A stretch of 64,000 nt of DNA from Pirellulales bacterium (GTDB taxonomy: Bacteria > Planctomycetota > Planctomycetia > Pirellulales > JACPPG01). A program made the translations under genes and the position numbers. Positions 1 to 12,381 of this stretch are shown in pieces; position 1 is the stretch's first letter, and every line of letters starts with the position of its first letter. Under the pieces are notes generated by a model. That model was not told the DNA's origin. It saw only the letters and a list, made by a program, of their open reading frames with translations, and ran no database searches. The stretch covers positions 1 through 64,000 of the forward strand of contig DASZWQ010000181.1 in NCBI GenBank assembly GCA_035546535.1, in the 5' to 3' direction.

Positions 1-1
1 C

Positions 2-1507
2 GGACGGCCTGACGGTGAACACATTGCCGTCACCGATCACAAGACCGCTGCTGCCGGCGCGCTGGAAAGCATCCAAGACCTGGCCGTGCAGGCCGCCCGA
101 CTGCACGCGCGCTACATCAACCCCGTGCTCGTGACGCTGACCGGAAAAAGCGGCGCGCTGAAGACGTTCGTCGCGGGCGAAGGTAACTATCTGCGCGACG
201 CCGAGGGGCGCCGCTACCTGGATCTTGTCTCGGGCTTCGGATCGCTGAACCTGGGGCACAATCATCCACGCGTCGTGGCGGCCATCCAATCGGCCTTGGC
301 CCAGCACGCGCCGGGCTTCGCGCAATCGGCGGTCAATCCATACGCGGCGGCGCTCGCCGAACAATTGATCCAGATCGCGCCGGACAGCCTGGAGATGGTG
401 TTCTTCGCCAACAGCGGCTCGGAAGCCGTCGAAGCGGCGCTCAAGCTTGCTCGCATCGCGACGGGGCGGGCGGGTTTTCTGCACTGCGACCGTTCCTACC
501 ACGGCAAATCGCTCGGGGCACTCTCAGTTACGGGCAATCCCAATTATCAAAAGCCGTTCGCGCCACTGTTGGCCGATTGCCAGGCCGTTCCGTTTGGTGA
601 TGTGGAGGCCTTGCACGCTGCACTGGAATCGCGGCGTTTTGCGGCTTTCCTCGTCGAGCCGGTGCAGGCCGAAGGAGGCATGATCGTCCCGCCCGACGGC
701 TACCTGCGCGAAGCGGAGCACGTGTGCCACGAGTTTGGCACGCTGTTGGTGGTCGACGAGGTGCAAACCGGATTGGGGCGCACGGGAGAGATGTTCGCGA
801 CGGATCACGACGGAGCTCGCCCTGACATCATGACGCTGGCCAAGAGCCTGGGGGGCGGGCTGATGCCGATCGGTGCCATGCTCTGCCGGCGTGATTTGTG
901 GCACAAGGCTTATGGTTCGCTACAGAATTTCGCGCTGCACACCAGCACGTTCGGCGGCGGCAGCCTGGCGTGCGCCGCGGGGCTGGCCGCGCTCAAAGTG
1001 CTGGCCGACGAAGATCTGGTCGCGCGCGGTCGGGCACGCGGGGAACAACTCCGCGCGGGGCTCGAGGGCATCGCCGAAAAATATCAGCTTGTCAAACAGA
1101 TCCGCGGCCGTGGACTGCTCTTGGGCATCGAGTTCAACCCGCTCCCCGACGCCATCATGACGCACTGGAAGCAGACCCAGGCCCAGGGCATCGGCGAGTT
1201 CATCGCGCCGCAATTGGGGGAATTGATCGAAAGCATTCCGGCCCTCTACACCATGCACAATCTGCTGCAAGAATTCGGCATCTACACGCAGGTCGCGCGC
1301 TCCCACGCCATGGTGCTGCGCATCCAGCCGCCGTTGACCATCACCGCCGAAGAGGTCGATCAAGTGCTCGCGGCTGTGGATCGGGTCATCGGCAGCATTG
1401 ATTTTGCCAAGAACGTCGTGAATGACCTGATCTCGAAATCGACGCTCGGCACGCACGAAGGGGGCAAAGATCGCAGCGGTCAGGCGATCGACCAGACGAT
1501 TGCTTGA
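2..1507 (+). CDS. Class III PLP aminotransferase, probably the C-terminal part of an acyl-ACP reductase-aminotransferase fusion (5' end outside window)
   Basis: The frame is open to the first base of the window with no stop, so the gene begins upstream. An internal GTG at 86 could start a 473-residue protein, but the 28 codons before it resemble the linker of the fusion gene at 7162. The visible part is a complete class III (ornithine/GABA-aminotransferase fold) enzyme. It has the GFGSLNLGHNHP substrate-loop motif, a NSGSEAVEAALKLAR phosphate-binding motif, the DEVQTGLGRTG motif, and the Schiff-base lysine in AKSLGGG at bases 842-844. By eye it is about 70% identical to the C-terminal half of the gene at 7162, including the closing segments VARSHAMVLRIQPPLTIT and VNDLISKS. 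The likely role is transamination of an aldehyde made by an N-terminal reductase that lies off the window. The domain is certain; the fusion is inferred from the paralogue and the open 5' end. Confidence 0.88.
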   Translation, partial: GRPDGEHIAVTDHKTAAAGALESIQDLAVQAARLHARYINPVLVTLTGKSGALKTFVAGEGNYLRDAEGRRYLDLVSGFGSLNLGHNHPRVVAAIQSALAQHAPGFAQSAVNPYAAALAEQLIQIAPDSLEMVFFANSGSEAVEAALKLARIATGRAGFLHCDRSYHGKSLGALSVTGNPNYQKPFAPLLADCQAVPFGDVEALHAALESRRFAAFLVEPVQAEGGMIVPPDGYLREAEHVCHEFGTLLVVDEVQTGLGRTGEMFATDHDGARPDIMTLAKSLGGGLMPIGAMLCRRDLWHKAYGSLQNFALHTSTFGGGSLACAAGLAALKVLADEDLVARGRARGEQLRAGLEGIAEKYQLVKQIRGRGLLLGIEFNPLPDAIMTHWKQTQAQGIGEFIAPQLGELIESIPALYTMHNLLQEFGIYTQVARSHAMVLRIQPPLTITAEEVDQVLAAVDRVIGSIDFAKNVVNDLISKSTLGTHEGGKDRSGQAIDQTIA

Positions 1508-1597: not shown

Positions 1598-2944
1598 TCA
1601 GAGGAGGTCGCCAGCGAGGCAGCCTTCGATCTGTCGAGAAAACAGACGCAACAGGTCTTCGGCTTTCTGGAGCGACAGGGATGGATCGCGGTGCATCGAG
1701 AGCGTTGTCACCGTCCCATGCGTGACGACGCCGAACGCCGCCGCCGTATGCGGGCGTAGCGGCGGCAGGAGCGCCAGACTCTGTAATCTCAACGGCCCAC
1801 GGCGGGCGTCGACCTCGATCGTTGCGTCCACCAGCGGCTCACCCAGGTTGCTGAGCACGCACGTCGCCAGACAGCGATCCGTCGGCAAGAGGCGCGGGAT
1901 GCGTCGGAGGCGCTGCGCCAGTCCCAGAATGTGATGAAACGCCAGGCCCAACCGGCAGCGTTTGACGATTCCCATTTCCAGCGACACCAGGCGCAGCAGT
2001 TTCGGCACGGTTGCCTTGGCATTCATGCGCCGATCGAGATTGATCATGCACACGATATTCGCAGCCGGTGTGGCATCGTCGGCCGGAAGGCGCAGATTCA
2101 TCGGCACCATCACGCGCGCGATTTTTCCAGCCGCATCCGGCTTATGCTCGGCAACCCAGTCGTGCAGCGCGGCAAACAAGCACGTGACCAGGAGATCGTT
2201 CACCGTGGCGCCGCGAGCGCGCGCCGCGCTACGCAGCTCTTGCAACTTCTCGGCGTCGAATTGATGCGATAACGAGAGCGGGCCGGCCGAGAGATCGGCC
2301 GCCTGGTCCTCCTCGTCGCTGTCATCAACCAGGCTCAGCGGCCGATGCGAATAGAATTCGACCACGCCCACCAGGGCCAGCAGTTCTTGCGGCAATCGCA
2401 ATAGCCGCCGCCACCAGGTAAGGCCGAACCGGCCGCGACGAGCCAGACGTGCGGGATCTACCGTGCGCAGGCGACTGCCACCGGCCGCTTCCACCAGCAT
2501 GGCGTAGGCGTTCAGGCAATCGTCGATGAAGCCGGCCGCGCCAACGCCATCGCAGCAGGCGTGATGAAATTCAAACCACAGCGTGGCGCGGTGCTCATCT
2601 CCACGCACCCAAATTCGCAGTCCCCGCTGTCGCCGCAGGTCGATCATCCGGCCCGCTGGAAAATCGAGCGGTTCGTCGGGGCCTCCCCAGGAGATCGCCG
2701 GCGGCGGCCCGATCTTTGCTGTCCAGTGGTAGCCCGCCGTCTCGTCCCCCTCGAGCAGGCGGCAGAGCAGCGGATGCCGCGGGAGCATATCGTCGACCGC
2801 TTGTCGCCAGACGTCGCGGTCGAGACGGCCCTGCACCTCGGCTTTCAACCAGAAGGTCATAGGCTGACGCGCGCGATCGTCGGCCAGCATGTACTCTTCG
2901 AACGGCGTCAGCGGCAGAAGAGAAGGAGAGAGCGTATCAGACAT
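1598..2944 (-). CDS. Free-standing condensation-domain / acyltransferase family protein (HHxxxDG)
   Basis: The 448-residue protein carries the HHxxxDG motif typical of the condensation / wax-ester synthase / PapA superfamily, as HHACCDG at residues 127-133. This sits in the usual place about 125 residues from the N-terminus, and the length fits a stand-alone member. The N-terminus (PLTPFEEYMLADDR) resembles the opening of these proteins, and a second conserved half follows with a DLLVTCLFAALHDW-type helix near the middle. Such enzymes join an activated acyl donor (CoA or carrier-protein thioester) to an amine or alcohol. No carrier-protein domain is attached. It lies on the minus strand between two paralogous aminotransferase genes, convergent with the first and divergent from the ligase at 3425. 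I infer that it makes the final amide or ester of this locus. Membership of the superfamily is fairly secure; donor and acceptor are not known. Confidence 0.75.
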   Translation of the reverse strand: MSDTLSPSLLPLTPFEEYMLADDRARQPMTFWLKAEVQGRLDRDVWRQAVDDMLPRHPLLCRLLEGDETAGYHWTAKIGPPPAISWGGPDEPLDFPAGRMIDLRRQRGLRIWVRGDEHRATLWFEFHHACCDGVGAAGFIDDCLNAYAMLVEAAGGSRLRTVDPARLARRGRFGLTWWRRLLRLPQELLALVGVVEFYSHRPLSLVDDSDEEDQAADLSAGPLSLSHQFDAEKLQELRSAARARGATVNDLLVTCLFAALHDWVAEHKPDAAGKIARVMVPMNLRLPADDATPAANIVCMINLDRRMNAKATVPKLLRLVSLEMGIVKRCRLGLAFHHILGLAQRLRRIPRLLPTDRCLATCVLSNLGEPLVDATIEVDARRGPLRLQSLALLPPLRPHTAAAFGVVTHGTVTTLSMHRDPSLSLQKAEDLLRLFSRQIEGCLAGDLL

Positions 2945-3424
2945 CGCTGCGCGGTTTTGAAATCCCCCGATGCTGTAAAGCCGCCGCCGTCGCAGCAGGA
3001 TGGGATGCTACCCCGCTTGCTGCTACTCGTCTAGATTCTCCAGATTTTCAGATTGGTAAAACAGATAATCATAACTCGTGCTTCTAATAGGAATCGTCGT
3101 GCTGTCGTTGGTCGAGGGTCCCCGTAAGTCGTTACGCTCCTTGACAATGCTGTGCAATTTATGGAAGATGGGCAACCTGTATTGAGCTAGGGAAGCTGCC
3201 GCCACGCACGAGACCGATGCAGCGCGTCGGGCCTCGCTCGCCAGCCAGAAACAAATCCACGGGCAGCCGACGCTGCTTCGCTTCGATCGCGAAACGAACA
3301 ATGATCGGTTTGCAGGTTTCCTGGGAGGTAAATCCAGGACACATCGATTACCGTTTGCACCTGCTCACGGACGTGAGGTGTGAGTGACAGCCTTGCACAC
3401 GTGCGTCTGCATTTGCAGGTACTT
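2945..3424. promoter_or_regulatory. Divergent intergenic region between the condensation gene and the ligase operon
   Basis: This 480-base gap separates two divergent transcription units, so promoters for both are expected here. Part of it (about 3030-3100) is clearly more AT-rich than the surrounding genes. A TTGACA box lies at 3141-3146 on the plus strand, but the hexamer at the expected spacing (around 3164) is a poor match to TATAAT, so I do not call a promoter. Small open frames on the minus strand here show no recognisable protein pattern. Confidence 0.3.
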
Positions 3425-4858
3425 ATGAGTGAGGATATTCGCCAGCGCTGGCGACAAGTTGTCCGCGAGTCGATGTGTCACGTCGACGCTCCCGCGGACG
3501 ACCGCTATTGGTGCCCGGAGCTCGAAACGGCTTCGCGCGACCAACTGCGCGCGCTGCAGCAAGAGCGCGTGATCCTCGCCTACCAGTACCTGTGGGAGTG
3601 CAGTCCGTTTTATCGGGCCAAGTTCGAGCGAGCCGGGCTCGCGGCCGACAGTATTCGTACGCTGGACGATCTGCCGAAAATCCCGGTCACGCGCCGCGAG
3701 GAATGGCTGGAAAACCAGGAAGCCAATCCCCCGTGGGGCACCTTTTCGCCGCTCCGCCAGGAGGATTGGACCGAACGCGGCTGGATGCTGTTCACCACGT
3801 CGGGCACGACCGCGGCACAGCCCCGAGTTTTCCGCCACACCACCCACGACCGCGACCTGTGGAGCTGGCTTGGCGCCCGGGCTTTGTACGCCATGGGGGC
3901 CCGCCGGGGCGACATTGCCATCAATTGCTTCGGCTATGGCACCTCGGTCGCCTTTTGGGGGCTGCATTATGCCCTGAACCTGATGGGCGTGCCGGTTATC
4001 TCGGGCGGAGGGGCGAATACCGAGCGGCGGGCGTTTTTCATCCAGACTTATCGCCCGACGATGTTACTTTGCACGCCCTCTTACGCTCTCTACCTGGGGC
4101 GCGTCATGCAGGATGCCGGCCATTCGCCACAAGAAAGCTCGATCCGCATGATCGTGGCCGCCGGCGAGCCGGGCCCCTGCGTTCCCAGCACCAAGAAACG
4201 CATCGAAGATCTGTGGCACGCCTCGCTGCACGACGACTTTGGCTGCACCGAAGTGGCCATGAGCCCGTTGGGCTACACCTGCCGCGAGCAGGTGCGACGC
4301 CCAGACGGCCAGGTCGACGTGCATTTGATGGAAGACGCCTACCTGCCCGAGGTCTTGCATCCCGAAACCATGCAACCGGTCGGGGCCGGCGAATCGGGGG
4401 TGCTGGTCGTGAGCAACCTGTTCAGCGAATCGCAGCCGATCTTGCGGTACGTGATGGGAGATTGGATCAGCGTGACGACCGAGCCTTGCCTGTGCGGCCG
4501 GACGCACGCCCGGGCCATCGGCGGCCTGAAGGGGCGCAACGACGAACTGATCAAGATTCGTGGCCTGATGTTCTTCCCCTCAGTGATCGAGGACGCCGTT
4601 CGCCGGCTGCCCGAGGTGGGGGATGAGTTCAAGATCGAGATTCGCCGGGTCGACGACATGGATCGCATCAAGATCACGGTGGAACCGAACTCGCAGATCC
4701 CCAAGGGGGACTACGCGACGCCGCAGCAGCGCATCGCCCGATCGCTGAAGGGTTCGCTGGGTATCGACGTCGACGTGGCCCTGGTGCCATTCGGCACGTT
4801 GCCGCGTACCGAGTTCAAGGCGAAGCGGCTGTTTGACCTGCGCGAGAAGGCCTTCTGA
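3425..4858 (+). CDS. PaaK-like acid-CoA ligase / adenylate-forming enzyme
   Basis: The 477-residue protein resembles phenylacetate-CoA ligase (PaaK) proteins. It has the N-terminal YQYLWECSPFYRAKFERAGL region, the P-loop-like LFTTSGTTAAQPR segment, a DDFGCTE motif, and the CLCGRTHARAIGGLKGRNDE plus IKIRG segments of the C-terminal half. The family activates an aryl or other carboxylic acid with ATP, giving an acyl-adenylate that is usually passed to CoA. I chose the ATG at 3425, which has CAGGT five bases upstream. A GTG at 3380 would add 15 residues but has its GAGG almost touching the start. The stop overlaps the start of the next gene (TGATG at 4856-4860), so translation is probably coupled to the pabB-like gene. 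That suggests, without proving it, that the substrate is an acid derived from chorismate. Confidence 0.85.
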   Translation: MSEDIRQRWRQVVRESMCHVDAPADDRYWCPELETASRDQLRALQQERVILAYQYLWECSPFYRAKFERAGLAADSIRTLDDLPKIPVTRREEWLENQEANPPWGTFSPLRQEDWTERGWMLFTTSGTTAAQPRVFRHTTHDRDLWSWLGARALYAMGARRGDIAINCFGYGTSVAFWGLHYALNLMGVPVISGGGANTERRAFFIQTYRPTMLLCTPSYALYLGRVMQDAGHSPQESSIRMIVAAGEPGPCVPSTKKRIEDLWHASLHDDFGCTEVAMSPLGYTCREQVRRPDGQVDVHLMEDAYLPEVLHPETMQPVGAGESGVLVVSNLFSESQPILRYVMGDWISVTTEPCLCGRTHARAIGGLKGRNDELIKIRGLMFFPSVIEDAVRRLPEVGDEFKIEIRRVDDMDRIKITVEPNSQIPKGDYATPQQRIARSLKGSLGIDVDVALVPFGTLPRTEFKAKRLFDLREKAF

Positions 4859-6408
4859 TGCACACCGCCAGCTCGACAACCATCGGCCGAGGCCAGCGGG
4901 CCGCGTTCCACCTCGTCACCGAGTTGGAGCTCGCGCACCCGTTCTGGCAATATCGCCGGCTGTACGAGTTCGAGCCGTATTCCTTCCTGCTCGATAGCGC
5001 GAAGGATCCGGAAAAGCTGGGCCGGTTCTCGTTCGTCGGTGGTGATCCGTTCCTGGTGTACAAGGCGAAGCGGCGCCTGCAGCCGGGCGCGCCGGCGACG
5101 GCGCGGATCGAAGTCACGCGCCGCCACGACGCCGAAGGGCGTCCGCTGGCCGCTCCCAAGGTTGAAACGCGCGAGGCAGACGTCTTCGACGATCTGCGCG
5201 CCTTGCTTGCCGAATCGTACGTCGACGTCGCTTGTTATGCCGATCAGCCGGTACCGCTGTTGGCCGGCGCCGTGGGCTACCTGGGGTACGAGGCGGGCTA
5301 CTTCGTCGAAGAGATGCCCGACCTCGGTGCTGACGACCTGGGAATGCCGGACGTTTATTTCATGTTCCACGACGTTCTGTTGGCTCATTGCCACCAGAGC
5401 GAGCGGTCGTTCCTGTCGGTCGTCGGGCGCGGCGCGACCGAGGAGCAGGCACGCGCGCGGGCCGAGCGGCTGCGCGACCAGATGCTCGCGCGGATCGAAG
5501 CCTTCGAGGCAGCCCCGCCCGATCTTGCCTGGTCGGGGCCGAATCCCCAGCGCGCCGCGGCGACGACGATCGACGTGAAATCGCATTTCGACCTGCCGGG
5601 TTACTGCGAGCTGGTCGAACGCTGCAAGGAACACATTTTCGCGGGGGATATTTTCGAGGTCTGTCTGACGCACCGGCTCGAAACCGAGCTGGTCGGCGAT
5701 CCGTGGGACCTGTATCAGGAGCTGCGGCGCATTAATCCGGCGCCGTTTGCATCGTTTTTGAACTTTCCTGAAGGGCACGTGATCTCGAGTTCGCCCGAGC
5801 GGTACGTCAGCCTGGGCGTGGACCGGGTTGCCGAGAGCCGGCCGATCAAGGGAACGCGCCGCCGCGGCGAGTCCGAAGCCGACGACGAGGCGATCTATCA
5901 AGAATTGTTCTCGTCGGTCAAAGATCGCGCCGAGAACGTGATGATCGTCGACCTGGTGCGCAACGATTTCGGCCGCGTCTGCAGGTTCGGCAGCGTTCAC
6001 GTGCCCGAGCTGATGATCGTCGAACCGTACGCCACGGTGTTCCAGATGGTGTCGACCATACGCGGCGAGCTGGACGAAGGACTCGATGCGCTGGATCTTT
6101 TGCGGGCTTCGTTCCCCGGAGGATCGATGACCGGCGCGCCCAAGATCGAGGCCATGAAAATCATCGACCGGCTGGAGCCGGTCAAGCGCGGCATCTACTC
6201 GGGCGCGATCGGCTATCTCGATTTTTCGGGCGTGATGGATTTGTCGATCGTGATCCGTACGCTGGTCGAGCGCAATGGCCGTTGCTACTTCAACGTCGGC
6301 GGCGCGATCGTGGCTGACAGTGTTCCGCAGGCCGAGTATTACGAAACGCTCGACAAGGCGCGAGCTTTGATTACGGCCGTGAAGAATTTGAAGGCTTGCC
6401 AGATGTAA
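4858..6408 (+). CDS. pabB: Aminodeoxychorismate synthase component I (PabB-like chorismate-binding enzyme)
   Basis: The 516-residue protein belongs to the TrpE/PabB chorismate-binding family. It has a TrpE-type N-terminal domain and the C-terminal block with DRAENVMIVDLVRNDFGRV, SFPGGSMTGAPKI and YSGAIGYL. The motif PIKGT around Lys331 is informative. Aminodeoxychorismate synthases carry Lys in PIKGT, whereas anthranilate synthases usually have Ala (PIAGT). The product is therefore probably 4-amino-4-deoxychorismate, the precursor of p-aminobenzoate, rather than anthranilate. It starts inside the stop codon of the ligase gene and is followed after 21 bases by the glutaminase subunit. No aminodeoxychorismate lyase (PabC) is present in the window. 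The gene could serve folate synthesis, but its position in this locus suggests supply of an aromatic building block. Confidence 0.88.
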   Translation: MHTASSTTIGRGQRAAFHLVTELELAHPFWQYRRLYEFEPYSFLLDSAKDPEKLGRFSFVGGDPFLVYKAKRRLQPGAPATARIEVTRRHDAEGRPLAAPKVETREADVFDDLRALLAESYVDVACYADQPVPLLAGAVGYLGYEAGYFVEEMPDLGADDLGMPDVYFMFHDVLLAHCHQSERSFLSVVGRGATEEQARARAERLRDQMLARIEAFEAAPPDLAWSGPNPQRAAATTIDVKSHFDLPGYCELVERCKEHIFAGDIFEVCLTHRLETELVGDPWDLYQELRRINPAPFASFLNFPEGHVISSSPERYVSLGVDRVAESRPIKGTRRRGESEADDEAIYQELFSSVKDRAENVMIVDLVRNDFGRVCRFGSVHVPELMIVEPYATVFQMVSTIRGELDEGLDALDLLRASFPGGSMTGAPKIEAMKIIDRLEPVKRGIYSGAIGYLDFSGVMDLSIVIRTLVERNGRCYFNVGGAIVADSVPQAEYYETLDKARALITAVKNLKACQM

Positions 6409-6429
6409 CAGCGCGCGGAATTTCGCGCG

Positions 6430-7032
6430 ATGGTAAATATGAAGACCGTCATCCTCGATAACTACGACTCGTTCACCTTCAACCTCTATCAATACATAGG
6501 GGAAACGGATGAACGGCCGCTCGTGTTTCGCAACGACAAGATTTCGTTCGACGAACTGACGCAGCTTGCGCCCGACCGGATCATTATCTCGCCCGGGCCC
6601 GGCAGCCCCGAGGATCCCGCGTATTTCGGCATCTGTCGGCAAACGATCCTCGAGTTGGGGCCGACGATTCCCATCCTGGGCGTCTGCCTGGGGCACCAGG
6701 GAATTATCTATTCGTTGGGGGGACGCGTGATCCGCGCTCCGGAAGTGATGCACGGCAAGACGAGCTACGTGTATCACAACGGCAACACGATGTTTCGCGA
6801 AGTGCCCCGCGCGTTCGAGGCCATGCGTTATCACTCGCTGGTCGGCGATCCGACATCCCTCCCCGATTGCCTGGAGGTGACGGCCAAAACCTGGGACGAC
6901 GTGATCATGGCCGTGCGCCATCGCGAGTATCCGATCTACGGGATCCAATTCCATCCCGAATCGATCGGTACTGCCGTCGGCAAGCAATTGCTGCGCAACT
7001 TCCTGCACGGCGATCACGGAGGTCGAAATTAG
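6430..7032 (+). CDS. pabA: Glutamine amidotransferase subunit of aminodeoxychorismate/anthranilate synthase
   Basis: This 200-residue class I glutamine amidotransferase supplies ammonia from glutamine to the chorismate-converting subunit encoded just before it. It has the N-terminal DNYDSFTFNLYQY signature of TrpG/PabA, the oxyanion-strand motif IISPGPGSPEDP, the nucleophile in GVCLGHQG (Cys86), and the His-Glu pair in GIQFHPESI. Length is normal for a stand-alone subunit. Two ATGs (6430 and 6439) are possible and differ by three residues. A 6-bp inverted repeat, CGCGCG with a GAATTT loop, sits at 6412-6429 directly before the first ATG and covers the likely ribosome-binding bases. It could mask initiation, but in GC-rich DNA this may be chance. 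Co-location with the pabB-like gene makes the assignment firm; folate versus secondary metabolism is undecided. Confidence 0.88.
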   Translation: MVNMKTVILDNYDSFTFNLYQYIGETDERPLVFRNDKISFDELTQLAPDRIIISPGPGSPEDPAYFGICRQTILELGPTIPILGVCLGHQGIIYSLGGRVIRAPEVMHGKTSYVYHNGNTMFREVPRAFEAMRYHSLVGDPTSLPDCLEVTAKTWDDVIMAVRHREYPIYGIQFHPESIGTAVGKQLLRNFLHGDHGGRN

Positions 7033-7161
7033 AACGTTTTTGTAGCGACGCTTAATTCAGTTGGAACCGTTTTGCGGCCGCACTGCCGGCGCACACCGGT
7101 CACGGAGGAACGGGTTTAGTGCGACGGCGCGGTCGGTTGTTTCGCGCCGAGATTCGCAACC

Positions 7162-9855
7162 ATGAAATTCGCCTTCCTGATTCACCCGCTCTCTGACGAG
7201 ACCAACTACGTCCTCCATTTCGGCGGCGACGCGCTGCAAAACCGCTGGGGGACCGACCCGGTGGGCTTTTGTCGCGCCGTACACGAGGCTGTCGGATCGT
7301 ACGAAGACGTGCTCACCGAAGACATCGTCGAGGCCAATCGCGTGGCCGACGAGATGGCCGGGCTCGTTTCGCTCCGCGGCGCGCAGGCCGACGGCCGGTT
7401 GTACGAGATTCCGCTGGATGCCATGCGCATTCTGGAAGAGCCAGCCCGCGCCATGGAGTTCATGGAGCAGGCCGTGGAAATGGCCGCGCAGTGGGGGGCG
7501 AAAGTCGTCGGGCTGGGTTCAATGACGGGAGTCGTCGGTGGTCAAGGCAAATACCTGTCCGAGCGCAGCCCGGTTCCTGTGACCACAGGCAACAGCCTGA
7601 CCGTTTTCGCGGCCATCGAGAACGTCCATCACGCGGCCGCCGAGCTGGAAATCGACTTGCGGCACGAAACCGTGGCCGTGGTCGGCGTGCCAGGCAGTAT
7701 CGCCACGGCGTGCGCGAAATTGCTCGCACCGCATTGCGGGCATTTGATTCTCGTCGGGCGGCGCCCCTCGGATCGAGCGAGCGCGCTGGCCCAGGAACTG
7801 GGCGCCTCCCTGGAATTCGACATCGCCACGGCGGTCGCTCGGGCGAAGATCGTCGTCTCGGCCACTTCGGCCGGGCATTGCATCGAGCAGGCGATGCTCA
7901 AGCCGTGGAGCGTCGTGGTCGACGTCGCCATTCCGACCGACATTTGCGAATCGCACGCCACGCGCGACGACGTGCTGGTCCTCTCGGGCGGACTGACGCA
8001 GATTCCCGATTGCATGCCGCGCACCAGCAAATTCCTGTGGTTCCATCACGGCATGATTCCCAGTTGCCTGGCCGAAACCATGGTGCTGGCCTTGGAAGAG
8101 CGCCCCGAATCGTTTTCGCTCGGCCGCAGCCTGGACGTGGACAAGATCAACGAGATCGGCCGTATCGCCAAATCGCACGGCTTCGATTTTTCGCGGTTTT
8201 TCTCGTTTGGGCTGCCGCTCGATGATTCGGCGCTTATCCGCTTTCGCAAAGCGAATTCGCGACTGGTGCGTCGGCCGTCGTCGGCCAAACTATTGCCAGC
8301 GCGAAACGGCAACGGCCATGCGAATGGCCATTCACCGTCCGGTGGAAGCAATGGTCTGCACGCGGGTGCAAACGGCGCAACCAACGGCATTACGCACGGT
8401 GCGGAACACGCAAAAGAGCCGGCCAAGATCGTCGACCTTGCCGGCCGCGCCGAAAAGCTCTTCGCCCGGCACATGAATCCCGTGCTGGTGGCGCTCGGAG
8501 GCAAGGGGGGCTTCGTCAAAACGTTCGTGCGCGGCGAGGGATCGTACTTGTGGGATGCCGACAACGTTCCCTATCTCGATTTCGTCTCCGGCTTCGGGTC
8601 CGTCAATCTCGGGCACAATCACCCGGCGGTCGTCGCCGCGGTGAACGACGCGCTGCGGCAACAGGCGCCGGGCTTCGCGCAATCGGCGGTGAATCCCTAC
8701 GCGGCGCAATTGGCCGAAGAGTTGGTGAGCATCGCCCCGCCAGGGCTGGAGATGGTCTTCTTCTGCAACAGCGGCACCGAATCGGTCGAGGCTGCCCTTA
8801 AGCTCGCACGGAAATCCACCGGACGCGCCGGCCTGTTGCACTGTGATCGATCGTTCCACGGCAAGTCGCTCGGGTCGTTATCGATCACGGGCAATCCCGA
8901 ATACCAAAAGCCGTTCGGTCCGCTATTGCCCGGCTGTGAGAGCATTCCGTTTGGCGACGTGGCCGCTCTCGAGCAGGCATTGAGCACGCGACGCTTCGCG
9001 GCGTTCGTCGTCGAGCCGATCCAGGCCGAGGCGGGCATGGTCGTGCCGGGCGATTACTTCCTCCGTCAGGCACAAGAACTGTGCCGCGCTCACGGCACCC
9101 TGTTGATCGTTGACGAAGTGCAGACCGGCATGGGGCGCACCGGGTCGATGTTCGCGGTCGATGCGCTGGGCGTCGAGCCGGACATCATGACGGTTGCCAA
9201 GAGCCTGGGCGGCGGACTGATGCCGATTGGCGCCATGCTCTGCCGACGCGACTTGTGGCACAAAGCCTACGGCAGCCTGGAAACGTTTGCCCTGCACACC
9301 AGCACGTTTGGAGGAGGGAGTCTGGCATGCGCCGCCGGGCTAGCGGCGATCCGCGCGATTCGCAACGAGGACCTGGTGGAAAACGCCGTCGCTCGAGGTC
9401 GCCAATTGCACGAGGGGCTCGCCCGCCTGGTGCAGGAATCCGAAGTGCTCAAGGAAGTACGCGGGCGTGGCTTGCTGTTGGGCCTCGAGTTTCAGCCGCT
9501 GCCGCATGAGATTTCGGCCGCCTGGAAAGCCGTCGACGAAAGCGGCCTGATGCCGTTTCTTGTCCCCAAGCTCGACGACCTGATCGACAACATTCCCGCC
9601 TTGTATGCGATGCAAGTGCTGCTCGACACACACGGCATTTACACGCAAGTCGCTCGCTCGAACCCGTTGGTGCTGCGAATTCAGCCGCCGCTGACCATCA
9701 CGAGCGAACAAGTCGAACAGTTCCTCAATGCCTTGGAAAAAGTCGCGAGCGAGTGGGAACTGGGCACTCACGTCATGTCGACCGTGATTAGCAAATCGGT
9801 CATCGGGCACCACGATGCCGCCGAGCGGCATCGCGGTCCCGTAGCGGCCAAGTGA
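7162..9855 (+). CDS. Bifunctional AAR-like fatty acyl-ACP reductase fused to a class III aminotransferase
   Basis: The 897-residue protein has two enzymes in one chain. Residues 1 to about 375 resemble cyanobacterial long-chain acyl-ACP reductase (AAR). They contain a GSMTGVVGG segment, the TGNSLTVFAAIENV motif, a Rossmann motif GVPGSIA at 175-181, the LVLSGGLT strand, and SCLAETMVLALEE with Cys302. By alignment from memory Cys302 falls on the thioester-forming Cys294 of the Synechococcus enzyme. A flexible linker rich in Asn, Gly, His and Ala covers about 382-425. Residues about 430-880 are a class III PLP aminotransferase with the lysine of AKSLGGG at 680. I infer that the first half reduces acyl-ACP to an aldehyde and the second transaminates it to a primary amine. 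Upstream are the pab genes (129-base gap) and downstream an exporter (42-base gap). A paralogue lies at the window start. Confidence 0.9.
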   Translation: MKFAFLIHPLSDETNYVLHFGGDALQNRWGTDPVGFCRAVHEAVGSYEDVLTEDIVEANRVADEMAGLVSLRGAQADGRLYEIPLDAMRILEEPARAMEFMEQAVEMAAQWGAKVVGLGSMTGVVGGQGKYLSERSPVPVTTGNSLTVFAAIENVHHAAAELEIDLRHETVAVVGVPGSIATACAKLLAPHCGHLILVGRRPSDRASALAQELGASLEFDIATAVARAKIVVSATSAGHCIEQAMLKPWSVVVDVAIPTDICESHATRDDVLVLSGGLTQIPDCMPRTSKFLWFHHGMIPSCLAETMVLALEERPESFSLGRSLDVDKINEIGRIAKSHGFDFSRFFSFGLPLDDSALIRFRKANSRLVRRPSSAKLLPARNGNGHANGHSPSGGSNGLHAGANGATNGITHGAEHAKEPAKIVDLAGRAEKLFARHMNPVLVALGGKGGFVKTFVRGEGSYLWDADNVPYLDFVSGFGSVNLGHNHPAVVAAVNDALRQQAPGFAQSAVNPYAAQLAEELVSIAPPGLEMVFFCNSGTESVEAALKLARKSTGRAGLLHCDRSFHGKSLGSLSITGNPEYQKPFGPLLPGCESIPFGDVAALEQALSTRRFAAFVVEPIQAEAGMVVPGDYFLRQAQELCRAHGTLLIVDEVQTGMGRTGSMFAVDALGVEPDIMTVAKSLGGGLMPIGAMLCRRDLWHKAYGSLETFALHTSTFGGGSLACAAGLAAIRAIRNEDLVENAVARGRQLHEGLARLVQESEVLKEVRGRGLLLGLEFQPLPHEISAAWKAVDESGLMPFLVPKLDDLIDNIPALYAMQVLLDTHGIYTQVARSNPLVLRIQPPLTITSEQVEQFLNALEKVASEWELGTHVMSTVISKSVIGHHDAAERHRGPVAAK

Positions 9856-9897: not shown

Positions 9898-12381
9898 ATG
9901 GCGACACGTCGGCCGGACTCCCGACATTCGCCCGCAGTGTTTCCTTTGGACGTGCCAGCAGCGAGGTTCCACGTTTTGTTTTTCGAGCGCTATAGCAAGA
10001 TCATTCTGGGAGCAGCGATTCTCGTGCTGCCGGTGCTGGCGTATGGCGCGATCAGGGCTGCCGGCACGAATCGTAACGACGTCAAGGACTGGCTGCCCGA
10101 AACGTTCCAGGAAACCCAGGACTATCACTGGTTCCAGAAGCACTTCGAGAACGAGACGCAGGTGCTTGTCAGTTGGCCCGGCGCGACGCTCGAAGATCCG
10201 CGCGTGGAAAAGTTCGCCCGCCTGGTCGATGCGCGCCGTAGCGGCACAGACGGGCCCATCGACACGGCGCTCTTTTCCACCGTGCTCACCGGGCCCGAGG
10301 TCGTCGAGCGACTGACCAGGGCGCCTGTGAATCTCACACGTGCCGAGGCCGCGGCGCGGTTGGCCGGAGTGCTGGTCGGCAAGGATCATCGGCAAGTCAG
10401 CGCCGTGGTATCGCTTTCGCCGAAAGGGCAAGTCGACCTGCACGACACGCTCGCGCAGCTCGAAAAGGCCGCCGAGATGGCCACTGGCCTGAGCGCGCGT
10501 GACATCTACATGGGCGGGCCGCCGGTCGACAACGTGGCGATCGACGACGAAAGCGCAGGCACGCTGCGATACCTGGCTGGCTTGTCTGCGCTCACGGGCC
10601 TAGGGCTCGCCTATTGGTGCATGCGGCAGTGGGGGCTGACGGTTCTGATTTGCACCGCCGCGGTGTATAGCGCGCTGGTGGCCCTGGCCATGGTCTATTT
10701 CACCGGCAACATGATGGACGCCATCATGTATTCCATGCCGCCGGTCGTGTACACCGCGGCCCTGTCGGGCGCGATCCACATCATCAACTACTATCGTGCG
10801 ACGGTAGGAGAAGGGGGTCGCGCAGGCGCCGCGGGTCGCGCGCTGCGCCGCGCCTGGCTGCCGTGCATGTTGTCGGCCATGACGACGGCGATCGGGCTCG
10901 GCTCGTTGTGCATCAGCGAGCTGGTGCCGATCCGCCTGTTCGGGTTTTATTCCTGCCTGGGCGTGCTGTGCACGCTCGCGCTGTTATTCACTTGCGTGCC
11001 GGCAGCTTTGCAGCTCTGGCCGCCGCGTCCGGTCGCTCCGCCAGCCATCCATCCCTGGGACGAACCGACGGATGGACGCTGGTTTCATCGGTTGGGTCTG
11101 AAGCTTGCCTGGGGGATTGTCGGGCACCATGCGCTCGTCATTCTGGCTTTTGCCACCACGCTTGTCGGCTTGGGGATCGGAGCGCGGTACGTAAAGACGT
11201 CGGTCTCGATCGCGAATCTCTTCTCGCCCGAGGCTGAGCTGGTGCGCAAATACGAGTGGCTGCAGGAGCACCTGGGCGGGCTGATTCCGATGGAAGTCAT
11301 CATCCGCTTCGACAATCGCGAGAATCAGCAGTCGTTCCTCGAAAGGTTGACGCTGGTCGATCGCATCGAACGGCACCTGGTTGCGCTGCCCGAGGTGAGC
11401 AGCTCGATGTCACCCGTGACCTTTGCACCCAGCCTCGACCAGCCGGTGTCCAGCGGCGGCCGCGGGGCCTCGAAGGCGATGCAGCGGCTGCTCGTGCGAA
11501 ATCCCGAGCGTGTCCGCCAGGACGTGCTCAACAAGCAGCTTTTGAAGAGCCGCGCGGAATTCGAATCGAGCGACTATCTCAGCCGCGATACCGCTGACGG
11601 GAACGACGAAGAGGAATGGCGCATCAGCCTGCGCCTGCTCGCGGACGAAGACGTCGACTACGGGCTGTTCGTTCACGAAATCGAGCGACAGGTGGAACCG
11701 TTTCTCGACGCGGCGAACGATCCCGACGTGCGCGGGGCCTCGGCCCTCTACACAGGAGTCACGCCAGTCGTTTACAAGGCCGAACGGGCGCTGCTCAACG
11801 GGTTGATCGAAAGCTTTTTCACCGCCTTTCTGATCATGGCCGCGGTGATGGCGATCGTTTACCGCAGCGTGCTGGCCGGTCTACTTGTGATGTTCCCGAA
11901 CGTATGGCCGATGGCGGTCGTGTTCGGCTACTTGGGCTACGCCGGAGCCGTGATTGACATCGGCACCATGATGACGGCCAGCGTCGCCATGGGCGTGTCG
12001 GTCGACGATGCGGCCCACTATCTGACCTGGTTTCGTTTCGGGATCGGCCGTGGCTACGACCGAAAGACAGCCGCTGTGTTTGCGTATCGCAACGCCGCCG
12101 TGGCCATGGCGCAGAGCTCGATCATCGTCGGCTTAGGGCTGGCCGTGTTCGGCTTCAGCTCGTTCGTGCCGACCAAGATGTTCGGTCTGCTTATGCTGTT
12201 GCTCTTGGCCTGGGGGCTGTTCGCCGACCTGGTGCTGCTGCCGGCGATTGTGGCCGGCCCCCTGGGGCGCTTTTTCACGCGCGGCGTCAGGCCAGACATC
12301 GTGCATAGGCCGGACGAGGTATCGGGAGGCGGCGAGCTGGTGGGCGCTGGCGCAATCGCGGACAAGAGCGCTACTCAGTAG
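9898..12381 (+). CDS. RND superfamily / MMPL-type exporter
   Basis: The 827-residue membrane protein has the duplicated RND/MMPL layout. There is one N-terminal transmembrane helix (about residues 35-56), a large external domain with a WFQKHFENE segment, a block of about five helices (roughly 225-380), a seventh helix near 410-435, a second external domain, and a final five-helix block (about 640-800). Both helix blocks contain sterol-sensing-domain-like segments such as YTAALSGAIHIINYY and MTASVAMGVSVDDAAHYLTWF. The latter has the paired acidic residues seen in proton-driven members. MMPL proteins move lipids and lipid-like products out of the cytoplasm. It follows the reductase-aminotransferase gene closely on the same strand, so it probably exports the product of the locus. 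A hopanoid or general lipid role cannot be excluded. Confidence 0.85.
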   Translation: MATRRPDSRHSPAVFPLDVPAARFHVLFFERYSKIILGAAILVLPVLAYGAIRAAGTNRNDVKDWLPETFQETQDYHWFQKHFENETQVLVSWPGATLEDPRVEKFARLVDARRSGTDGPIDTALFSTVLTGPEVVERLTRAPVNLTRAEAAARLAGVLVGKDHRQVSAVVSLSPKGQVDLHDTLAQLEKAAEMATGLSARDIYMGGPPVDNVAIDDESAGTLRYLAGLSALTGLGLAYWCMRQWGLTVLICTAAVYSALVALAMVYFTGNMMDAIMYSMPPVVYTAALSGAIHIINYYRATVGEGGRAGAAGRALRRAWLPCMLSAMTTAIGLGSLCISELVPIRLFGFYSCLGVLCTLALLFTCVPAALQLWPPRPVAPPAIHPWDEPTDGRWFHRLGLKLAWGIVGHHALVILAFATTLVGLGIGARYVKTSVSIANLFSPEAELVRKYEWLQEHLGGLIPMEVIIRFDNRENQQSFLERLTLVDRIERHLVALPEVSSSMSPVTFAPSLDQPVSSGGRGASKAMQRLLVRNPERVRQDVLNKQLLKSRAEFESSDYLSRDTADGNDEEEWRISLRLLADEDVDYGLFVHEIERQVEPFLDAANDPDVRGASALYTGVTPVVYKAERALLNGLIESFFTAFLIMAAVMAIVYRSVLAGLLVMFPNVWPMAVVFGYLGYAGAVIDIGTMMTASVAMGVSVDDAAHYLTWFRFGIGRGYDRKTAAVFAYRNAAVAMAQSSIIVGLGLAVFGFSSFVPTKMFGLLMLLLLAWGLFADLVLLPAIVAGPLGRFFTRGVRPDIVHRPDEVSGGGELVGAGAIADKSATQ

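Follow-up and report, generated by a model that had tools for sequence, protein, structure and literature searches.

The window analyzed here, the first 64,000 nucleotides of contig DASZWQ010000181.1 (C181 below) of a Pirellulales bacterium (GCA_035546535.1; genome G000), carries near its start a pabB-pabA pair, predicted to encode the two subunits of aminodeoxychorismate synthase, directly behind a gene for a PaaK-like adenylate-forming ligase (Table 1). The present analysis concerns this pair, the fate of its product and the enzyme that would complete p-aminobenzoate (PABA). The ligase stop codon (TGA, 4856-4858) and the pabB start codon (ATG, 4858-4860) share one base (TGATG), as a first-pass annotation of the same DNA had reported. 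The ligase reading frame opens at 3380 and its start at 3425 was set by alignment with relatives, and for pabA a start at 6439 fits the relatives better than one at 6430 and is thus likelier. PabA contains the PabA/TrpG glutaminase motifs GxCxGHQ and HPES, which hold Cys86 and His175, and passes TIGR00566 with 204.2 bits (cut-off 121.05).

The assignment of the first subunit to aminodeoxychorismate synthase rather than anthranilate synthase, which the first-pass annotation had based on the PIKGT motif with Lys331, is supported by profile models, alignment and a motif control. In a profile scan the protein, which consists of Anth_synt_I_N and Chorismate_bind domains, passed the pabB model TIGR00553 (363.6 bits, cut-off 328.4) and failed trpE_most (TIGR00564; 402.2 bits, cut-off 517.7), and it scored below other PabB models (TIGR01824, PRK15465). 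Lys331 aligns with Lys274 of Escherichia coli PabB, a lysine whose role is treated in PMC7552465 (in extract). PIKGT was found in 29/29 extracted PabB sequences (nine like that of the window, hereafter window-type, and 20 of the order's other type) and PLAGT in 24/24 extracted TrpE sequences from this genome and its relatives, so that the motif difference holds in the Pirellulales. It is not universal, the Bacillus-type PabB structures 7pi1 and 7qu9 carrying PIAGT; a lysine at this position points to PabB, and an alanine does not exclude it. The best PDB match of the window protein, 8hx6, is deposited as a 4-amino-4-deoxychorismate synthase and comes, as we assume, from the chloramphenicol pathway. 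An anthranilate synthase paired with an anthraniloyl-CoA ligase has a parallel in phnAB with pqsA, and the raw trpE_most score (402) does exceed the pabB score (364). However, only the pabB cut-off is passed, the motif is PIKGT, and the genome has a TrpE of its own on contig C179, with PLAGT and 586.7 bits against the trpE cut-off of 517.7; identity as an anthranilate synthase was rejected on these grounds, and we give it hardly any credence.

This TrpE and the window PabB are the only two Chorismate_bind genes in the genome, and one further close TrpG/PabA-type protein is encoded on contig C109. Since the other chorismate-binding gene is trpE, the window pair is the genome's only aminodeoxychorismate synthase. 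A second pab pair, for which the first-pass annotation had advised a search, was rejected, as the searches returned one PabB and one TrpE. Two pathways of the organism need PABA. FolP is encoded on contig C107, and a tetrahydromethanopterin (H4MPT) operon (L205, G000:C50, 6689-10837) comprises genes for a short-chain dehydrogenase/reductase (SDR), a dihydropteroate synthase (DHPS)-like protein, DUF447 and RFAP synthase, whose product is made from PABA and phosphoribosyl pyrophosphate (PMC6787355, in extract). The DHPS-like and DUF447 frames lie 12 bases apart, with neither PabB nor PabA between them.

In Pirellulales relatives the usual order of this operon is SDR, DHPS-like, PabB, PabA, DUF447, RFAP synthase. 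The order's usual PabB, of which 20 loci were fetched with flanks out of a longer list, is 36-41% identical to the window PabB, is adjacent to PabA at 17 of these loci and has RFAP synthase within the fetched stretch at 13. In 5/5 genomes fetched for comparison (G000, G002, G003, G004 and G006) the operon persists but includes neither PabB nor PabA, G001 and G048 being left out for their broken contigs. In a tree of 40 rows (the 53 extracted sequences minus 13 of TrpE), which carries a long-branch warning, window-type PabB groups as a separate clade (100/97), with the 20 others set off from it (100/100); the row of G006 is long and its placement unsure. Among 396 genomes of the order, window-type PabB (E up to 1e-105) occurs in 16 and the close ligase (E up to 1e-80) in seven. 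Window-type PabB may have come from a foreign source and displaced the usual gene, or it may be a relocated gene that changes fast. The first-pass annotation had named, as a pattern that would speak against its own reading, that the pair be the only pab genes and be cotranscribed with folate genes in relatives. The former is the case, and the latter is found in altered form: the usual PabB adjoins the DHPS-like gene of the H4MPT operon (TIGR00284, DUF6513) in 17/20 loci, but it belongs to the other clade, and members of the window's clade have the pair outside the operon.

The close ligase was found in nine distinct loci, namely the window, G003 and seven more, three of which are in G002, G004 and G048. 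Wherever ligase and pabB are both whole, the stop of the former overlaps the start of the latter (6/6 loci), as TGATG in G000, G003, G048 and L162, as TAATG in G004 and as ATGA in L165, with PabB identities of 64-90% across these divergent genomes; at L160 (G002) pabB is cut off by the contig end after 29 matching residues. At L165 ligase-pabB-pabA are preceded by an Aminotran_4 gene that has the F-x-T of E. coli PabC, with 4-base overlaps from gene to gene. Directly 3' of pabA at that locus (6066-7133) lies a gene for a group II intron reverse transcriptase / HNH protein.

The pair could be a housekeeping system only, supplying PABA for folate and H4MPT, with its place beside the ligase and a PigE-like gene being incidental. 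This would fit the pair being the only one in the genome, and also seven basal relatives (G006, G057, G066, G071, G073, G078 and G079) with window-type PabB and neither ligase nor PabA in the fetched stretch, in several of which it lies beside putative glycine-cleavage-like genes. A functional tie to the ligase is further weakened by G001, where as in these seven no ligase adjoins window-type PabB, and by L164 and L166, where the ligase stands without pabB and a GNAT gene lies downstream; in G101 and G133 window-type PabB is on contigs <4 kb. On the other hand, the ligase-pabB overlap is kept in all six loci of divergent genomes, a PabC-like gene belongs to the same overlapping run at L165, and the same partners recur near the ligase: PigE-like genes in G000, G002, G003, G004, L164 and L166, GNAT genes in G004, L162, L164 and L166, and a condensation-type acyltransferase in G000, G002 and G003. 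A housekeeping role and nothing else is regarded as rather less than probable, though worth keeping in mind. In G001 a 7.3 kb contig (L081, G001:C164) carries a polyketide synthase-like gene (KR, DH; PfaA-like), a phosphopantetheinyl transferase gene and an SDR gene ahead of pabB-pabA on the same strand, and has no ligase.

The first-pass annotation had stated that no pabC is nearby, which needs correction. The window is the start of C181, and its bases 1-141 are identical to the final 141 bases of contig C98, with a PigE-like frame of 881 residues continuous through the junction. C98 has an Aminotran_4 gene (68001-68936). G003 shows the same genes upstream of pabB with no contig break, namely an epimerase-like gene, another open reading frame and then Aminotran_4, its Aminotran_4 being 74% identical to that of C98 and 3344 bases upstream of pabB. 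Because of the 141-base identity, the continuous frame and the order in G003, the C98 gene is placed 6248 bases before pabB, as a candidate and not a proven lyase. The absence of a lyase near the pair is thus largely a contig-edge effect, which can make a pathway gene look missing.

The C98 gene is the best lyase candidate and, judged by distribution, probably encodes the lyase. Relatives with at least 41% identity occur in 54/57 Pirellulales genomes (misses G026, G054 and G055). In an Aminotran_4 scan of 14 genomes, five PabB-bearing genomes of 95-100% completeness (G006, G017, G019, G021 and G027) had exactly two such genes, IlvE and the C98 type, and in G055 IlvE is the sole Aminotran_4 and TrpE the sole chorismate-binding match, with no PabB. 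Several observations weigh against a lyase role. The homologue in G004 sits on a different contig from the pair (those in G002 and G048 are on short contigs), G054 has PabB and merely a 35% relative of the C98 protein, and G031 (81% complete) has a C98-type gene and no chorismate-binding match. The C98 protein passes no lyase model (best 61.5 bits, cut-off 308) and in alignment has S-E-Q at the F-T-T of E. coli PabC, the Thr of which is missing from all three Aminotran_4 proteins of this genome (C98, C15 and IlvE on C135). This Thr has been proposed as proton donor, and a list of conserved PabC residues has been given (PMC3174152, in extract). Against reference residues from four PabC structures (PaPabC Phe27, Thr29, His43, Arg46, Lys140, Gly199 and Arg202), the C98 protein keeps His, Arg, Gly and Lys, and has Ser for Phe, Gln for Thr and Leu for the last Arg, the Lys, Gly and last Arg positions having been assigned by eye. 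F-E-T and F-D-T are kept in the L165 Aminotran_4 and in a 62% relative in G048. By its residues, a lyase role of the C98 protein is doubtful, and its activity is unproven since the Phe and Thr of the E. coli lyase are missing; the gene was rejected as a firm canonical pabC, as lyase models and residues both fail.

Alternatively, the lyase could be the C15 Aminotran_4, or an IlvE that takes both substrates, with the C98 enzyme serving the chemistry of the cluster. Phe-Glu is conserved in IlvE and in the C15 protein, as is the Arg that follows the phosphate glycine, and PDB chain 8pnw is deposited as a branched-chain aminotransferase/aminodeoxychorismate lyase. However, the C15 type is patchy in distribution, and the C98 type is the sole non-IlvE class IV enzyme in the five PabB-bearing genomes named above, and we hold this alternative to be doubtful. 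The C15 protein (L006) and its relatives in L158 and L159 represent a third class IV aminotransferase type of the order, with an F-E-V motif.

The missing Thr, together with the match to 8hx6, would also be compatible with aminodeoxychorismate being used directly, without a lyase, as in p-aminophenylalanine pathways. Yet FolP and RFAP synthase need PABA, and no chorismate-mutase-like or prephenate-dehydrogenase-like match was obtained for the seven window and two C98 proteins scanned, which leaves direct use very improbable. The first-pass annotation had offered a lyase elsewhere and direct use side by side; the former is favoured, because both PABA-consuming pathways are present and the gene of a candidate lyase precedes the pair at a short distance, and the latter found no support in the genes profiled.

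The remaining genes of the locus are listed in Table 1. Phenylacetate-CoA ligases are the nearest solved structures to the window ligase, but it fails the PaaK models (TIGR02155, 252.8 against 646.3; NF041878, 267.7 against 700), and every curated ligase cut-off lies far above its scores. PigE1 misses the PigE cut-off of NF053554 (747.1 bits, cut-off 850); both its domains align to PDB 4ppm, and it may work like PigE since the Cys and the pyridoxal phosphate (PLP) Lys are kept. No relative of the acyltransferase was found among PDB sequences. A GNAT-domain protein of ~350 residues recurs by the ligase or a PigE-like gene (L162 4200-5252, L164 7270-8325 and 11522-12577, L166 4659-5711, L079 6263-7318), and the one scanned received no NCBIfam name.

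Table 1. Genes at the start of the window, in order of position.
Feature	Position	Strand	Characteristics
PigE2, 3' part of second PigE-like gene	1..1507	+	5' part on C98; 881 aa joined
Condensation / WS-DGAT-like acyltransferase	1598..2944	-	PF00668 31.6 bits; TIGR02946 39.2 bits, far below cut-off
PaaK-like adenylate-forming ligase	3425..4858	+	AMP-binding + AMP-binding_C_2; stop overlaps pabB start
pabB, aminodeoxychorismate synthase component I	4858..6408	+	516 aa; PIKGT Lys331; TIGR00553 363.6 bits
pabA, glutamine amidotransferase subunit	6430..7032	+	200 aa; Cys86 + His175 motifs; TIGR00566
PigE1, PigE-like fusion	7162..9855	+	thioester-reductase-like domain Cys302 + class III aminotransferase Lys680
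MMPL/RND-family transporter	9898..12381	+	PF03176 MMPL

Taken together, we consider it likely that the pair is the sole aminodeoxychorismate synthase of the organism, making PABA for folate and H4MPT, relocated, and feeding in part the ligase. The pair would form aminodeoxychorismate from chorismate and glutamine; PABA would be completed by a class IV PLP enzyme, for which the C98 gene directly upstream of the window is the best candidate, and would then enter folate through FolP and H4MPT through RFAP synthase. The usual PabB-PabA of the order, normally inside the H4MPT operon, would have been lost and its supply taken over by a deeply different pair, and in a few lineages the ligase would activate part of the PABA for a cluster product. 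The identity and uniqueness of the pair, the gene overlap, the contig junction and the operon lacking PabB-PabA are read directly from the sequence, and the lyase activity of the candidate, the substrate of the ligase and the end product are inferred. Of the outlets, folate and H4MPT are the most likely; the ligase is probably a further one, because the pair is translationally coupled to it and stands among PigE-like enzymes, an acyltransferase and an exporter. The cluster around the pair looks built for a lipid product, and a fatty amine might be made at the locus and joined to PABA. A fully specified version, in which the sole PABA supply, serving two essential pterin cofactors, lies in a secondary-metabolite locus, the ligase forms 4-aminobenzoyl-CoA or -AMP, the PigE-like enzymes provide a fatty amine, a GNAT or condensation acyltransferase yields an N-alkyl-4-aminobenzamide lipid for which the MMPL protein is the exporter, and the lyase acts without the Thr, is unlikely as a whole.

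In this lineage the only source of PABA overlaps gene-on-gene with a ligase, and the probable lyase is non-canonical; primary metabolism of the vitamin type is connected here with a lipid-like locus that is so far undescribed. Two questions follow: by what means folate and methanopterin continue to receive PABA after the departure of PabB-PabA from the methanopterin operon, and whether an aminodeoxychorismate lyase lacking the usual Thr is in use in planctomycetes. Within an open-access literature subset, nothing was found on planctomycete aminodeoxychorismate, PABA-fatty amine clusters or planctomycete ribofuranosylaminobenzene, only an unrelated paper turned up on aminobenzoyl/alkylamine clusters, and none of the papers on planctomycete PABA gene clusters in that subset, by titles and abstract starts, concerns this locus.

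Known systems resemble the locus in parts. With PaaK-type ligases and the bagremycin/ferroverdin synthetase BagE/FevW, the window ligase shares both PaaK-type domains (NF041217 BagE_FevW, 88.5 bits), but it stays far below all curated cut-offs. PigE of the prodigiosin pathway performs thioester reduction followed by amination of the aldehyde, and TamH of the tambjamine pathway converts a fatty acyl-acyl carrier protein to an amine (PMC8341465, PMC9594044; both in extract). PigE1 of the window combines, as they do, a reductase-like domain bearing the conserved Cys with a class III aminotransferase in one chain, but differs from PigE in falling below its cut-off, in being one of two copies and in having no recognised pyrrole-pathway genes alongside, and from TamH in domain order, which is reversed. 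E. coli PabB aligns over its full length with the window PabB, including Lys274 with Lys331, and PabA is separate in both, whereas the window pair is coupled to a PaaK-like ligase and the lyase candidate on C98 lacks the F-T-T of E. coli PabC. A counterpart within the Pirellulales is the H4MPT operon, which provides the same PabA and PabB functions; the window pair, in contrast, lies outside this operon, its PabB forms a separate clade, and the operon of its genus is without PabB-PabA.

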